Source of the DNA: Planomonospora sp. ID67723 | GTDB lineage: Bacteria > Actinomycetota > Actinomycetes > Streptosporangiales > Streptosporangiaceae | Assembly (NCBI RefSeq): GCF_015711605.1 | Contig: NZ_JABTEZ010000001.1 | Coordinates: 834,001 to 898,000, forward strand | DNA: 64,000 nt | Direction of reading: 5' to 3' | In this document: in pieces, positions 1 to 4,218 of the stretch | Numbering within the stretch: the stretch's first letter is position 1 | Layout: the number at the start of each line of letters is the position of its first letter | Made by a program: the position numbers and the translations under genes | The notes under the pieces: model-generated | Seen by the model: the letters and a program-made list of their open reading frames with translations, nothing else | Told to the model about the DNA's origin: nothing | The model's database searches: none

Positions 1-886
1 GGACGCCCTCGGCGGTGATCTGCAGGTTGCCGGGATGCAGGTCGTAGTGCAGGAGCATGTCCCCGGCCAGGTCGGCGACATCGAAGCCGCCGAGCGTCGC
101 GGCGTACAGGTCCCGGTACGGCAGCACTCCGGGCGGCTTGGCCAGCAGGTGACGGCTCTTGACCAGCAGCCCGTCGACGTTGTCGGCCATCAGCGGTCCC
201 ACGGCCGCAGGCGACGGGGCGAGCAGGTGGCCGAGCTGCGCCACCGTAGTGAGGATGGCCGGCACATCCGGGGAGCCGGGCGACAGGTCCGCGGCCCGGC
301 CCTCGACGTACTCGAACAGCAGACTGATCCAGCCGCCGGCGTCACTGCTCCACAGCAGGCGCGGCGCCGGGACGGTGTCCGGGAGCACCTCGCCCGCCCA
401 CCGTTCCCGCTCGTACAGGCGTACGGCCGGGCTGTCGGCGGGCAGGGCCTTGAGGAAGACGCGGCCGCCGTCCTCGGTGTGCAGACGCAGGGCGGCGCCG
501 GGCATGAGTCCGTCCGTGGCGGCCTCGACGGTGGAGCCGATCGCCGCGGCCGGGTCGGTGATGGCCGCACCGGGGGTGTCGGTCGGGACGTGGTGGATGA
601 ATCGTCCCGCGACGCGCTCGCAGAAGACGGCGTACTCGAGGGTGTAGGTCAAGAACGCGTGCCAGCCGGGGTCGACCTGCCGGGACGGGGACAGGCCCGC
701 GCCGGGGTTGAGAGCACACGCGGCCAGGAACGCCAGCGCCTGCTCCATGACGCGCTCGGCGCGCGGGCCGGGGAGGTTCTCCTCGGCCGCGACGCGGGCG
801 GTGAGCCGGTCGAACAGCTCACCGGGGATGAGGGTGCGGGGATTGGCCAGCTCGGCAGCGGTGAGCCGGACCTTGGTGGTGGACAT
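1..886 (-). CDS. GRDP-like domain fused to APH-type phosphotransferase, 3' end cut by the window
   Basis: The frame is open from an ATG at 886, behind a GGGAGG ribosome site, to the left edge (about 295 codons seen). Residues about 1-115 resemble the small actinobacterial 'glycine-rich domain-containing protein' family, with a WHAFLTYT...FCERVAGRFIHHVP core. From about residue 120 the protein becomes an aminoglycoside/choline-kinase-like phosphotransferase: GGRVFLKAL (the N-lobe lysine strand), LLFEYVEGRAADL, and LLHYDLHPGNL (the HxDxxxxN catalytic loop with its Asp). The kinase continues beyond the window. The substrate is unknown. The fusion could be a true two-domain protein or the product of a deletion joining two genes; no stop lies between the halves. 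It probably forms an operon with the two small genes upstream. Confidence 0.75.
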   Translation of the reverse strand, partial: MSTTKVRLTAAELANPRTLIPGELFDRLTARVAAEENLPGPRAERVMEQALAFLAACALNPGAGLSPSRQVDPGWHAFLTYTLEYAVFCERVAGRFIHHVPTDTPGAAITDPAAAIGSTVEAATDGLMPGAALRLHTEDGGRVFLKALPADSPAVRLYERERWAGEVLPDTVPAPRLLWSSDAGGWISLLFEYVEGRAADLSPGSPDVPAILTTVAQLGHLLAPSPAAVGPLMADNVDGLLVKSRHLLAKPPGVLPYRDLYAATLGGFDVADLAGDMLLHYDLHPGNLQITAEGV

Positions 887-950
887 GGAACCTCCCGTTC
901 ACACGTGCGGCCCTCCGGCCGCTGGACGTCGTGCGGTGGTGCTGTTCCGT

Positions 951-1121
951 TCAGGCGATGCGGGTGTCCCCGGCAGGAGAGGACCTGGAGTTTCCGGGGG
1001 CACACCCGGCGACCGGAGGTCCGACGGCCCTGCGCCCACAGGGTCGTCCGGTCTCGTCTGCTCCCCGCCGCCGCTTGGCCCGGCCGGAAAAGAACCGAGC
1101 CAGGAACTGGCGGCGGGTCAT
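951..1121 (-). CDS. Small Arg-rich protein, 56 aa, coupled to the upstream ORF
   Basis: I do not recognise this protein. Its ATG at 1121 overlaps the upstream stop by one base (TGATG), an arrangement typical of translational coupling. The product starts MTRRQFLARFFSG, which looks like a twin-arginine motif (RRxFL), but no hydrophobic segment follows, so a Tat signal is not supported. Two cysteines lie in the middle. The gene ends 64 bp before the kinase fusion gene. High GC makes chance ORFs common here, so the coupling is the main support. Confidence 0.35.
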   Translation of the reverse strand: MTRRQFLARFFSGRAKRRRGADETGRPCGRRAVGPPVAGCAPGNSRSSPAGDTRIA

Positions 1122-1426
1122 CACGGGTGGTGCTCCGCTGGGCGACCCCTGGCCGCCGTCCGAGCGGTGAAGGCGATGCGGCCGAGGAGGAACTCGGTCT
1201 CCGGGGAGACCTCCGCCCCGTCCGGCCGATACCGGATCACGGACCCGTCCGCCCGGTGCTCGACGGGGAAGCCGTCCGACCACCGTGGCCCGGGCCGGCC
1301 AGGGGTGTCACCCCCGATGGACGGCCCGCACCCGGACGCCTGCCGCAGGAGGGGGACGCCAGCGGCGGCAAGCGGGTACGGCGCGACCGCGTCGTCCATG
1401 CGGGGTTGTGCGCCGCGGCTGTTCAT
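1121..1426 (-). CDS. Hypothetical protein, 101 aa
   Basis: I do not recognise this protein family. The first half is Pro/Gly-rich and probably disordered. The second half reads like a small folded unit: FPVEHRADGSVIRYRPDG followed by EVSPETEFLLGRIAFTA. Its stop overlaps the start of the next small ORF. The tandem TTGCTT repeat at 1515-1534 lies about 90 bp upstream of its start, in the gap after the HTH regulator gene. It may be the first gene of an operon ending in the kinase fusion. The start at 1426 has no strong ribosome site; a later ATG at MDDAVAPY is possible. Confidence 0.45.
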   Translation of the reverse strand: MNSRGAQPRMDDAVAPYPLAAAGVPLLRQASGCGPSIGGDTPGRPGPRWSDGFPVEHRADGSVIRYRPDGAEVSPETEFLLGRIAFTARTAARGRPAEHHP

Positions 1427-1514
1427 GCGGGACCCCGTAGAGGGGAGGACGCCCGTGGGGTGACGGATGAGCGCATGCCTTGACGGTAGGGATGCCCGTC
1501 GAAGCAGCTCAAGG

Positions 1515-1534
1515 AGATTGCTTCAGATTGCTTC
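1515..1534. promoter_or_regulatory. Tandem 10-bp repeat with TTGCTT cores, candidate operator
   Basis: Two perfect copies of AGATTGCTTC lie head to tail, with TTGCTT at 1518-1523 and 1528-1533. A GAAGCA at 1501-1506 adds an inverted copy of TGCTTC. The repeat lies just after the HTH gene stop and upstream of the gene starting at 1426. The same 10-bp spacing of TTGCTT occurs upstream of the regulator operon (3175-3190). Confidence 0.5.
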
Positions 1535-1542
1535 ACGATCAA

Positions 1543-2409
1543 TCAAGAGGTGGAGGAACCGCCCGGGAAGAACTCCGCAGCGAGATCATCGAGCACACGG
1601 GCCATGACGGCGCGGGCCTCCCGCCCGTACACCGCAGCCTCCTGCATCATCTGGAAGATCCGCCCGTACAGGTCGATCTCCTCCGGCTGGATCAGCGACA
1701 GCTCTGCCGAGAACGTCTCAACGGTCACCAGTTCCTCGTCGTAGATCCAGAACCCGTGCACGGGGGTCTTCGGCAGGCGGACCGTCCACGGGATCACACC
1801 GAGCGCCACGCTGGGCAGCGTGCCGACCGTGGTCAACCGGTCGATCTGTCCCATCATCACCTCCGGCGGGCAGAGCAGGTTCCGCAGCACCGATTCCGTC
1901 AGCACGAAGTGCAGGCGTTTGCCCGGCTGGTAGAGAATCCGCTGCCGGTCCATGCGGGCCTGCACACCCTGATCGAGGTCGTCGGGGATGTGGTGGGTGG
2001 TGATGACCTGGGTGAGGATGCTGCGCGCGTACTCCGGCGTCTGCAGCAGCCCGGGGACGGTGGACGGCTCGAACACCCGCAGCATGGAGGCGCTCGCCTC
2101 TCGTGCGGAGACGGTGAGCTGCTGCGCCTGGGTGCCGGCCCTCAGCTTGGCCCGCCACTCGGCGTACGCCAGTTCCAGGCTCTTCAACTGTGCGAGCAGG
2201 GAGGGCACCTGGGTGGCGTGGCCGGTCGCGGCCGCCCAGGTGCGGATGTCGTCCTCGCTCGGCGTCTGCTTGCCGTTCTCGATCTTGGAGACCTTCGTGG
2301 CTCCCCAACCGAGGGACTGCGCGAACTCCTTCCCGTTCAGGCGGGTGGTCTTGCGGAGCTTGCGCAGCCGGTCCCCGAGGGCCTCACGCGCCTGTCGTAC
2401 GGTCGGCAC
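1543..2409 (-). CDS. XRE-family regulator with DUF5753-like ligand domain
   Basis: This 288-residue DNA-binding protein has an N-terminal HTH (residues about 5-65: RLRKLRKTTRLNGKEFAQ, then WGATKVSKIENGKQTPSEDD). It continues with the long C-terminal domain of Scr1/DUF5753 regulators (VFEPSTVPGLLQTPEYAR, then GFWIYDEELVTVETFSAELSL). The GTG at 2409 is chosen because upstream residues in this frame belong to the overlapping DUF6879 gene. The two genes overlap by 26 bp, so they are co-transcribed and probably coupled. This regulator is the best candidate to bind the TTGCTT repeats on both sides. Such regulators are abundant and mostly uncharacterised in actinomycetes; some act in development and antibiotic control. 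Confidence 0.9.
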   Translation of the reverse strand: MPTVRQAREALGDRLRKLRKTTRLNGKEFAQSLGWGATKVSKIENGKQTPSEDDIRTWAAATGHATQVPSLLAQLKSLELAYAEWRAKLRAGTQAQQLTVSAREASASMLRVFEPSTVPGLLQTPEYARSILTQVITTHHIPDDLDQGVQARMDRQRILYQPGKRLHFVLTESVLRNLLCPPEVMMGQIDRLTTVGTLPSVALGVIPWTVRLPKTPVHGFWIYDEELVTVETFSAELSLIQPEEIDLYGRIFQMMQEAAVYGREARAVMARVLDDLAAEFFPGGSSTS

Positions 2410-2950
2410 CCTGCCACTTCCTGGCGTACTCGTTGTAGGGGATGGCGTGGTGCCAGGCGGCGTCCCGGCCCGCGCAGTGCTCCACCACCGCGGCCGGGTC
2501 ATCGATGTGCTCCCACGCCTCCAGCTCGTCGGCGTCGTTGAACCGGCCCACGACGATGAACCGCGAGTCGAACAGCCACGCATCCACGTCGGGCAGGCCG
2601 AGGCCGGCGGTCTGGTCGCGTGGCAGGAACCGGATGTCCTCCCCGGCGTCGATGTTCCCGGCGGTCAGCCGGAGCGTGAACCGCATGTAGTCGGTCAGCG
2701 GCTCCGTCACGACGCGCGCCCGCTCGACGCGCTTCCCTGCCGCCTTGGCGGCCCGCATCAGGTCCATCCAGGGCTTGCGCTGGATCGCGTTCAGCCGCTC
2801 CAGCTCGCCCCAGTCGCCGGCGGCGTACGCGGCGAGCCGGTCGGCTTCGGCGGGCACGTTGTAGCGGTCTCGCAGCTCCAGCCGGTAGGCGGTGTGCTTG
2901 AACGCGGTGAACAGCGCCAGGAACTCCTCGCCGGTCAGGAGCCGGGTCAC
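2384..2950 (-). CDS. DUF6879 family protein
   Basis: This 188-residue soluble protein resembles the DUF6879 family commonly found beside Scr1-type HTH regulators. Visible features are the opening TRLLTGEEFLALFTAFKHTA, a central RFLPRD, then DAWLFDSRFIVVGRFND, and a C-terminal DAAWHHAIPYNEY. The GTG start at 2950 overlaps the stop of the preceding small gene in a GTGA junction, and its own 3' end overlaps the regulator gene. The biochemical role is unknown. The tight three-gene coupling suggests that the small protein, DUF6879 and the regulator work as one signalling unit. Confidence 0.85.
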   Translation of the reverse strand: MTRLLTGEEFLALFTAFKHTAYRLELRDRYNVPAEADRLAAYAAGDWGELERLNAIQRKPWMDLMRAAKAAGKRVERARVVTEPLTDYMRFTLRLTAGNIDAGEDIRFLPRDQTAGLGLPDVDAWLFDSRFIVVGRFNDADELEAWEHIDDPAAVVEHCAGRDAAWHHAIPYNEYARKWQGADRTTGA

Positions 2951-3153
2951 TGCACCTCCCGGGCGAGCGCGAGAACATCGGCGGGCACCTCGACCACCAG
3001 TTCGTCGTCGGCCAGGTCCCGGATGCCGGCCAGCGCCTCCGGGTCGGTCACGATCTTCCCCTGGACGACGTAGGTGCCCCGGTCGGTGGCGTAGAGCGCC
3101 GGGCAACTTCCCTCGTTCGAGCCGCCGGTCCTGCCAAGGAACGTTAGCCGCAT
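2947..3153 (-). CDS. Small DUF6879-associated protein, 68 aa
   Basis: This is the first gene of the regulator operon. It starts MRLTFLGRTG and contains SCPALYATDRGTYVVQGKIV, a pattern I recognise from small hypothetical proteins that precede DUF6879 genes in many actinomycetes. A second half (DDELVVEVPADVLAL) completes a probable small beta-rich fold. It has no signal peptide or membrane segment. Its TGA overlaps the GTG of the next gene. Phased TTGC(T/C)T repeats begin 22 bp upstream of its ATG. Confidence 0.8.
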   Translation of the reverse strand: MRLTFLGRTGGSNEGSCPALYATDRGTYVVQGKIVTDPEALAGIRDLADDELVVEVPADVLALAREVQ

Positions 3154-3174
3154 CGCGGCCTCCTGGGATCGAGC

Positions 3175-3241
3175 TTGCTTGCGATTGCTTACATGAGGCC
3201 GATGGTTGCCTCACCTTGCCTGATGGTCAAGGGGTTTGCTT
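3175..3241. promoter_or_regulatory. Helically phased TTGC(T/C)T repeats upstream of the regulator operon
   Basis: TTGCTT occurs at 3175, 3185 and 3236, and TTGCCT at 3206 and 3216, all on the same face of the helix (spacings of 10, 21, 10 and 20 bp). The array lies 22-88 bp upstream of the ATG at 3153, so a bound protein would cover the promoter. The pair at 3175/3185 has the same 10-bp spacing as the repeat at 1518/1528. Confidence 0.5.
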
Positions 3242-3289
3242 CGCCGGACGGGATCGATCGTCGGTCACTGAGATCCGCCGAAGGAAGGC

Positions 3290-3322
3290 GACGGCCCCGG
3301 CGCCCTCCGTTCCGGGGCCGTC
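3290..3322 (-). terminator. Hairpin downstream of the integrase remnant
   Basis: A perfect 11-bp stem (GACGGCCCCGG with CCGGGGCCGTC) encloses an 11-nt loop, without a U-tract. It lies just past the integrase remnant stop at 3368 in that gene's direction. Confidence 0.5.
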
Positions 3323-3367
3323 CTCCATGCCCACCGGGGCACTAACCCGTACGGGGCGGGCCGCCGA

Positions 3368-3980
3368 TCATCCTGCCGCCGAGGTCGTCTTCGGCCTGCC
3401 GCCCATGACCTGGTCGACGACGTCGACGGCGCGCTGGTCGGCCTCCGGCGAGAGGCGGCTGTAGATGTTGGCCGTGACTATGATGCTCTCGTGGCCCAGG
3501 CGCTTGCTCACGGTGTCGAGCGAGACGTCGGACGCGAGCAGCTCGGTGGCGTGGGCGTGACGAAGGCGTGCAGGGTCGGCGACTTCCTGATGCTTCGCTG
3601 CCTGGCCAGCTCGGTGACCTTCGACCAGATCCGGGACCAGCCGTTGGAGTGCAGGATGACCCCCTTCGGGGCGGCGAAGATCAGCTCCTGGTCGGACGCG
3701 TCCTTCGTGCGGTGCTTGAGGTCGATGTCGCACGGCCGCAGCGCCGTGACCTCGCCGTAGCGCAGGCCGGCGCCCATGGCCGGCGTGATGACGTCGCCGG
3801 CGAGCTCGCCACGGGACCGGAGGCGCTGCTGGCCCATCCGGGTGACCCACGCCTGGATGACGCCGGTGGTGATCTCGGTGATCGGCACACCTCCGGGAGG
3901 CCGAGGCGGATGCCGCCCTCCGGGAGGAGGATCGCGGGCCGCCCGTGCCGGTCGAACAATCGCCGGTAGATCGATGCCAT
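3368..3980 (-). pseudogene. Broken tyrosine recombinase (integrase) remnant
   Basis: Pieces of a phage/ICE-type tyrosine integrase lie in different frames. The N-terminal piece starts MASIYRRLFDRHGRPA near 3980. A middle piece has GLRYGEVTALRPCDID (first catalytic Arg). The C-terminal piece has LRHAHATELLA (HxxR), LGHES and ANIYSRLS (catalytic Tyr). Between SPTLH and LRHAHATE, reading CACGACCTTCGT instead of the observed CACGCCTTCGT would restore the frame, so one A appears deleted. The stretch between PITEITTGVIQAWV and GLRYGEV is far shorter than in intact integrases, so internal DNA is also missing. It lies about 150 bp from the 3' end of tRNA-Ser, a usual attachment site for such elements. 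Confidence 0.8.
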
Positions 3981-4085
3981 GTCCACCTTCCCGTTTCGGA
4001 AGGTGAGCACCACTGCCACCGGGGCCGCGTTTCAAGACCGAGAGCGGGGCCGTTCCCCCACGGCTACCCATGATCGTGATATGCG

Positions 4086-4123: not shown

Positions 4124-4131
4124 GTCAGCGG

Positions 4132-4218
4132 CGGTGGTGGTGGGATTTGAACCCACGGATGAGTTGCCCCATCACACGCTTTCGAGGCGTGCGCCCTCGG
4201 CCACTAGGCGACACCACC
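4132..4218 (-). tRNA. tRNA-Ser (anticodon CGA)
   Basis: An 87-nt type II tRNA reads on the minus strand. The acceptor stem pairs GGTGGTG (from 4218) with CACCACC, followed by a G discriminator at 4132. The anticodon loop contains CTCGAAA, giving anticodon CGA (reads UCG). A long variable arm is present, and the T arm pairs GTGGG with CCCAC around TTCAAAT. CCA is not encoded. tadA and its partners lie upstream on the same strand, and an integrase remnant lies downstream. Confidence 0.95.

Follow-up and report, generated by a model that had tools for sequence, protein, structure and literature searches.

The window analysed here is a stretch of 64,000 nucleotides (64 kb) from Planomonospora sp. 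ID67723. All genes of the locus are located on the minus strand, and in this direction the order is a repeat array, P0003, a DUF6879 protein, a WhiJ-like regulator, a TTGCTT pair, a promoter-like element and the downstream genes (Table 1). In Pfam the regulator matches HTH_31 (PF13560, 2.3e-11) and DUF5753 (PF19054, 6.3e-38). No promoter was detected with strict sigma-70 criteria. WhiJ-like loci frequently, yet not universally, have an adjacent AbaA-type (HATPase) gene; none is present among the neighbouring genes scanned.

The whole system resides within an insertion of about 5.6 kb (window 1-4010 plus C1:832403-834000) between a tRNA-Ser gene and the dnaX region. The tRNA-Ser gene (4130-4218) adjoins the insertion, and integrase remnants (3368-4071) are split over two frames. 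The insertion is absent from the one congener compared. A repeat of the tRNA-Ser 3' end was looked for at the opposite border of the island and is absent there. A label as defence system was dropped because the PADLOC matches were to generic HTH only.

Table 1. Genes, predicted promoter elements and putative operators of the locus (window coordinates)
Feature	Position	Strand	Remarks
Upstream operator array (putative), five AAGCAA/AGGCAA units	3175..3241	-	Units 3236, 3216, 3206, 3185, 3175; spacing 20, 10, 21, 10 bp
Predicted cassette -35, TTGACC	3225..3230	-	TTGAC common in the same stretch of homologous operons
Predicted cassette -10, AACCAT	3202..3207	-	17-nt spacer; transcription start expected near 3195
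P0003, 68 aa	2947..3153	-	Place usually held by BldB/DUF397 proteins
DUF6879 protein	2384..2950	-	Pfam PF21806, E 2.5e-54
WhiJ-like regulator, 288 aa	1543..2409	-	XRE HTH + DUF5753; recognition helix WGATK
Downstream operator (putative), AAGCAATCTGAAGCAA	1518..1533	-	10 bp past the regulator stop codon
Predicted downstream -35, TTGAGC	1507..1512	-	Directly abutted by the TTGCTT pair
Predicted downstream -10, TACCGT	1483..1488	-	18-nt spacer; TTG-N-TANSGT in 18 homologous operons
Predicted leaderless 17-codon ORF	1423..1476	-	ATG 6 nt past the -10; stop overlaps next start (ATGA)
101-aa ORF	1121..1426	-	No known family matched
Possible 56-aa ORF, MTRRQFLARFF...	951..1121	-	From sequence only; start overlaps preceding stop; no family match
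391-aa protein, beginning	1..886	-	DPGWHAF-type N-terminal domain + APH kinase domain; continues past the window edge

TTGCTT occurs as a pair at 1518/1528 and as another pair at 3175/3185, which is followed by TTGCCT or TTGCTT copies at 3206, 3216 and 3236. The steps are 10 bp in the first group and 10, 21, 10 and 20 bp in the second, i.e., all are near whole helix turns. These positions agree exactly with an initial annotation of the sequence, which gave the two pairs and further phased copies up to 3241. Its assignment of one array to the promoter of the DUF6879-regulator operon and of the other to the region before the small-ORF/kinase-fusion genes is correct because the gene order on the minus strand puts the arrays there. 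On this coding strand the downstream pair reads AAGCAATCTGAAGCAA and the upstream array AAGCAA..GGCAAGGTGAGGCAA..AAGCAATCGCAAGCAA. Both strands of the window together hold 13 TTGCYT, a total no higher than chance would give. Their clustering does exceed chance: seven of the 13 belong to the two arrays, and none of 5,000 dinucleotide shuffles carried out for each of the two intergenic stretches had an equal number of sites or a 10-bp pair.

The genome-wide tests were pattern searches of the 8.3-Mb genome. TTGCYT-N4-TTGCYT has three matches, all within 1.7 kb at the operon of the window, vs two for the backwards control. The number of pairs in the genome is ordinary; the grouping of all three at one operon is not. 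The strict motif RAGCAAYNNNRAGCAA has three exact matches, all of them beside DUF6879 operons: two flank the operon of the window, one at each end, and the third (C3:898702) is located at the downstream end of a paralogous operon. When one mismatch is allowed nine more sites appear, about the same number as in the backwards control, and two of them mark upstream ends, at C3:900333 for the paralogue and at C4:276435 for a third DUF6879 operon. There may be cross-talk among the three DUF6879 operons of this genome.

DUF6879 homologues were taken from named genomes and from a set of 341 genomes which belong to the same family, and the 103 operons with identical three-gene order form the set for the following comparisons. 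Self-similarity at a lag of 10 bp has a z of 15.4 upstream and 20.8 downstream of these operons, vs -0.5 within the regulator gene; z of the next best spacings at the operon ends (18 and 20-21 bp) is ≤4.8. For 28 non-redundant operons (<60% regulator identity, dinucleotide shuffling) the lag-10 z is 6.3 upstream and 8.4 downstream, and for the 52 most distant operons 14.4 and 11.5. Seven held-out plasmid loci, which belong to Streptomyces and Nocardia, gave 7.2 upstream (from six stretches) and 8.3 downstream. The lag-10 score is ≥5 in 50/103 upstream and 57/103 downstream stretches vs about 9 expected; about half of the stretches at a given end fall below 5, and only 28/103 operons reach this score at both ends. 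Upstream of the regulator in eight further DUF5753 loci of the genome the lag-10 signal is lacking, and we therefore confine our claim to DUF6879 cassettes. The initial annotation had made its proposal depend on conservation of the repeats beside homologous operons, and the 10-bp geometry is indeed enriched at both ends. The motif TTGC(T/C)T, which it proposed to search for near DUF6879 operons, calls for a refinement: the geometry alone is general, and the letters are peculiar to the branch of this regulator; in other genomes matches to TTGCYT-N4-TTGCYT are scattered.

Upstream, TTGAC precedes the first start codon by 45-90 nt in 57/103 operons (2.7 expected), and TTGAC with a spacer and xAnnnT in 43 operons (0.5 expected). 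In 23 of the 28 operons which have TTGAC as well as a clear repeat, the repeat starts 30-41 nt downstream of the first T of TTGAC and would thus sit over or just past the expected start of transcription. The window pair 3175/3185 has the same position, and three extra units carry the array across the -35/-10 region. At the other end TTG-N-TANSGT is present in 18 operons vs 0.8 expected. The downstream repeats end 0-5 bp ahead of TTG in 17 of these 18, and in 13 of the 18 the start codon is located 3-8 nt past the -10, which is the layout of a leaderless message. The leaderless spacing is also seen in four plasmid loci (L205, L207, L209 and L210), the start codons of which were annotated independently. 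In all probability the downstream TTGCTT pair of the window serves as an operator next to the promoter of the genes which follow. The Streptomyces plasmid cassettes L205 and L207-L210 carry GCAAT-type repeats at both ends. Their upstream repeats are separated from the first start codon by about 65-86 nt vs about 15-40 nt elsewhere, and the upstream effect may therefore differ between lineages.

Both ends of one operon share letters. The value for the longest shared words is 8.07 when upstream stretches are compared with their own downstream stretches, and 7.09 when compared with the downstream stretches of other operons. The best of 20,000 permutations gave 7.67 (p≤5e-5). The intragenic control for word sharing is negative (p 0.68). 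Among the closest relatives own ends score 11.3 vs 7.3 for mismatched ends. Examples of such end-to-end words are CGAGCAATCGCGAGCAATC and CGAGCAATAGCGAGCAATC in operon L057, and GCGCAATCGC and GTGCAATCG in operon L056.

The residues of the recognition helix which follow the conserved HTH tryptophan, W35, go with the repeat word. Helices with SQP, SQS or PQS are found with GAATA, those with PPS, PAS or PHS with GAGAAA, HES with GCAAG, xAT and QAS (which include GAT of the window regulator) with GCAAT, QLS and HLS with GCAAAC, and HRT, HPT and QQP with GCATC. The association between helix and operator has a Mantel p of 0.001. Of the regulator pairs with 45-60% overall identity, 47-49% agree in operator class when the helices are similar vs 9-12% when they are dissimilar; below 40% regulator identity this word-class test shows no difference. 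Residues 36 and 37 are among the top three of 267 columns in information about operator class, in a set of only 19 non-redundant sequences. In a cruder identity-matched test, which used whole downstream regions, pairs with the same helix and pairs with different helices were alike. Because common descent accounts for part of the link and the cruder test is negative, the putative helix-to-DNA code is a strong lead, not proven.

From these observations we infer that the encoded regulator very probably binds at both ends and controls its own genes as well as the next genes. That one regulator links both operons into a single system, as was suggested at the outset, is supported by the conserved geometry, by the letters shared between the ends and by those which track the helix. 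On direct repeats which recur every 10 bp, about once per helix turn, HTH units would dock head to tail along a single DNA face. The upstream array spans the predicted cassette promoter and start site, and binding of the regulator would limit its own transcription, i.e., autorepression. The downstream repeats are positioned just ahead of the -35 of the predicted leaderless promoter; binding at this site would recruit polymerase and turn on the small ORFs and the kinase fusion. Taken together, we consider it likely that the repeats are two operators of the encoded WhiJ-like regulator with autorepression upstream and activation downstream. As to the sign in itself, repressor upstream and activator downstream, the basis is position only, and we lean slightly towards it; the different place of the upstream repeats in the Streptomyces plasmid loci counts against it.

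Conceivably, the regulator acts as a repressor at either operator. It would then silence its own operon together with the downstream genes, and a signal acting via P0003/DUF6879 would free both, in the manner of a phage-repressor switch. XRE regulators commonly are autorepressors, WhiJ is regarded as a repressor of development in S. coelicolor (PMC4255298), and binding at two ends fits the same sequence data. Yet the downstream repeats end just ahead of the -35, the usual place of an activator, and the only WhiJ-like protein which was tested on a leaderless target activates (PMC10294661). We regard joint repression as rather unlikely, although it deserves serious consideration. It is improbable that the repeats are bound by a different protein, e.g., a host-wide regulator or P0003, instead of the encoded HTH protein. 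Admittedly, XRE proteins use direct repeats less often than palindromes (PMC12565409). However, the letters of the repeats vary from operon to operon and track the recognition helix of the regulator encoded there, and the strict motif is restricted in this genome to its three sites at DUF6879 operons. A host-wide regulator is disfavoured because it would keep one sequence. Even less probable is a type II toxin-antitoxin operon with ordinary autoregulation in which DUF6879 or P0003 is the toxin and the downstream pair is incidental. Small partner genes do adjoin the HTH gene, and related XRE/DUF397 pairs are listed as toxin-antitoxin systems (PMC6262351); but related pairs are without clear toxicity (PMC10364602), DUF6879 does not possess the catalytic motif of its fold, and the repeats at the downstream end show conservation and are linked with a promoter. 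Clustering of the hexamers by chance would agree with a genome-wide pair count close to that of the backwards control, but it is practically negligible as an explanation given that all three matches surround one operon, that shuffling never reproduces the arrays and that the conservation of the geometry in relatives refutes it.

Within the preferred scheme of a regulator acting from two operators, we infer for P0003 and the DUF6879 protein that they would set the activity of the regulator in answer to a signal, as BldB proteins do for WhiJ. P0003 has no DUF397 match in Pfam. A profile comparison with DUF397 gave a probability of 10% (E 0.003); the protein is small and its gene is adjacent to those of the regulator operon. 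The structure model of P0003 (pLDDT 60) is not reliable enough to be compared with known folds. L162 (8779-9234) encodes a second P0003-like protein on the opposite strand, directly upstream of the cassette. In L186 (G000:C3:797169) a P0003-like gene seems to have a DUF5753 regulator (helix WQASK) immediately behind it, with no DUF6879 gene in between; this arrangement is a possible shorter form of the cassette.

The DUF6879 model (pLDDT 95) predicts a phospholipase-D-like fold, with Z scores of 12.3 for the PLD domain of SauUSI, 12.0 for Nuc and 11.9 for NucT. The model resembles PLD nuclease domains, FAM83 and TrmB-type domains. The HKD motif HxKxxxxD is present in 0/103 sequences, nor is there a strongly conserved H or K column. 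As the motif is missing from all 103 sequences, a role in sensing or scaffolding, as in TrmB and FAM83, is more likely than catalysis. In the literature searched no mention of DUF6879 was found.

Among the products of the genes behind the cassettes are radical-SAM proteins (15/103), PCMT-type methyltransferases (10/103), FxLD lanthipeptide precursors (4/103) and proteins related to the N-terminal domain of the kinase fusion (3/103). The FxLD precursor-like peptides are located behind cassettes L055, L099, L100 and L146, with a lantibiotic dehydratase next in L055. A weak match to a lasso leader was seen behind the DUF6879 cassette in L067. The N-terminal domain of the kinase fusion (DPGWHAF...HHVP) is without a Pfam family and recurs in L109, L125 and L130, apparently as a shorter protein. 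Some graspetide clusters contain DUF397/DUF5753 genes, as reported in a 2026 paper, and in one graspetide group a protein isoaspartyl methyltransferase is almost always present (PMC13097080).

Tentatively, and well aware that it may not hold, we propose a generalization: the P0003-DUF6879-WhiJ-like genes would constitute a transferable control cassette with an operator at each end, which governs whatever follows, be it radical-SAM, methyltransferase, FxLD lanthipeptide or other genes; three recognition-helix residues might reveal its DNA specificity, and DUF6879 might be a phospholipase-D fold which has lost catalysis and now serves as a sensor. WhiJ-like regulators are numerous in mycelial actinomycetes, and only a minority of them have known targets. 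A two-ended operator geometry combined with a rough helix-to-DNA code would allow targets to be predicted from sequence. Further, DUF6879 operons are tied to probably controlled genes, several of which are for peptide natural products, and the uncharacterised DUF6879 family gains a fold and a context.

WhiJ9 from S. venezuelae binds three direct repeats and is needed to activate the leaderless iosA; BldB proteins act on this system (PMC10294661). The locus in the window shares with WhiJ9-BldB9-iosA an XRE-type WhiJ regulator, direct repeats, an adjacent leaderless target (predicted in the window) and a small partner protein, and direct repeats near a leaderless target, as in the WhiJ9 model, are present in the window sequence as a predicted site. 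The WhiJ9 repeat, too, has a 10-bp consensus, CGxxCTCAAC, in three copies. Its letters are unlike those of the window; the partner is a BldB/DUF397 protein and the locus is without a DUF6879 gene; and one site is described 113 bp upstream of the iosA start vs two putative operators which bracket the window operon (PMC10294661). A regulator with HTH and DUF5753 domains and a small partner are also common to the S. coelicolor XRE-DUF397 pairs Scr1/Scr2, WhiJ/SCO4542 and SCO1979/1978 (PMC6262351, PMC10364602, PMC4255298), and autoregulation of SCO1979 is reported according to a citation in PMC12565409. Unlike in these pairs, P0003 has no DUF397 match and a DUF6879 protein is present. With 103.3 bits against the NCBIfam Sco1979 family (equivalog, cut-off 350 bits) the window regulator is not a member. 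Streptomyces BldC, a developmental regulator which, as cited in PMC10294661, binds cooperatively, likewise uses direct repeats instead of palindromes. BldC is MerR-like and belongs to another family, and the likeness to the window regulator concerns only the binding mode, which is predicted here. WhiJ-type regulation is already known; DUF6879 is a new partner.
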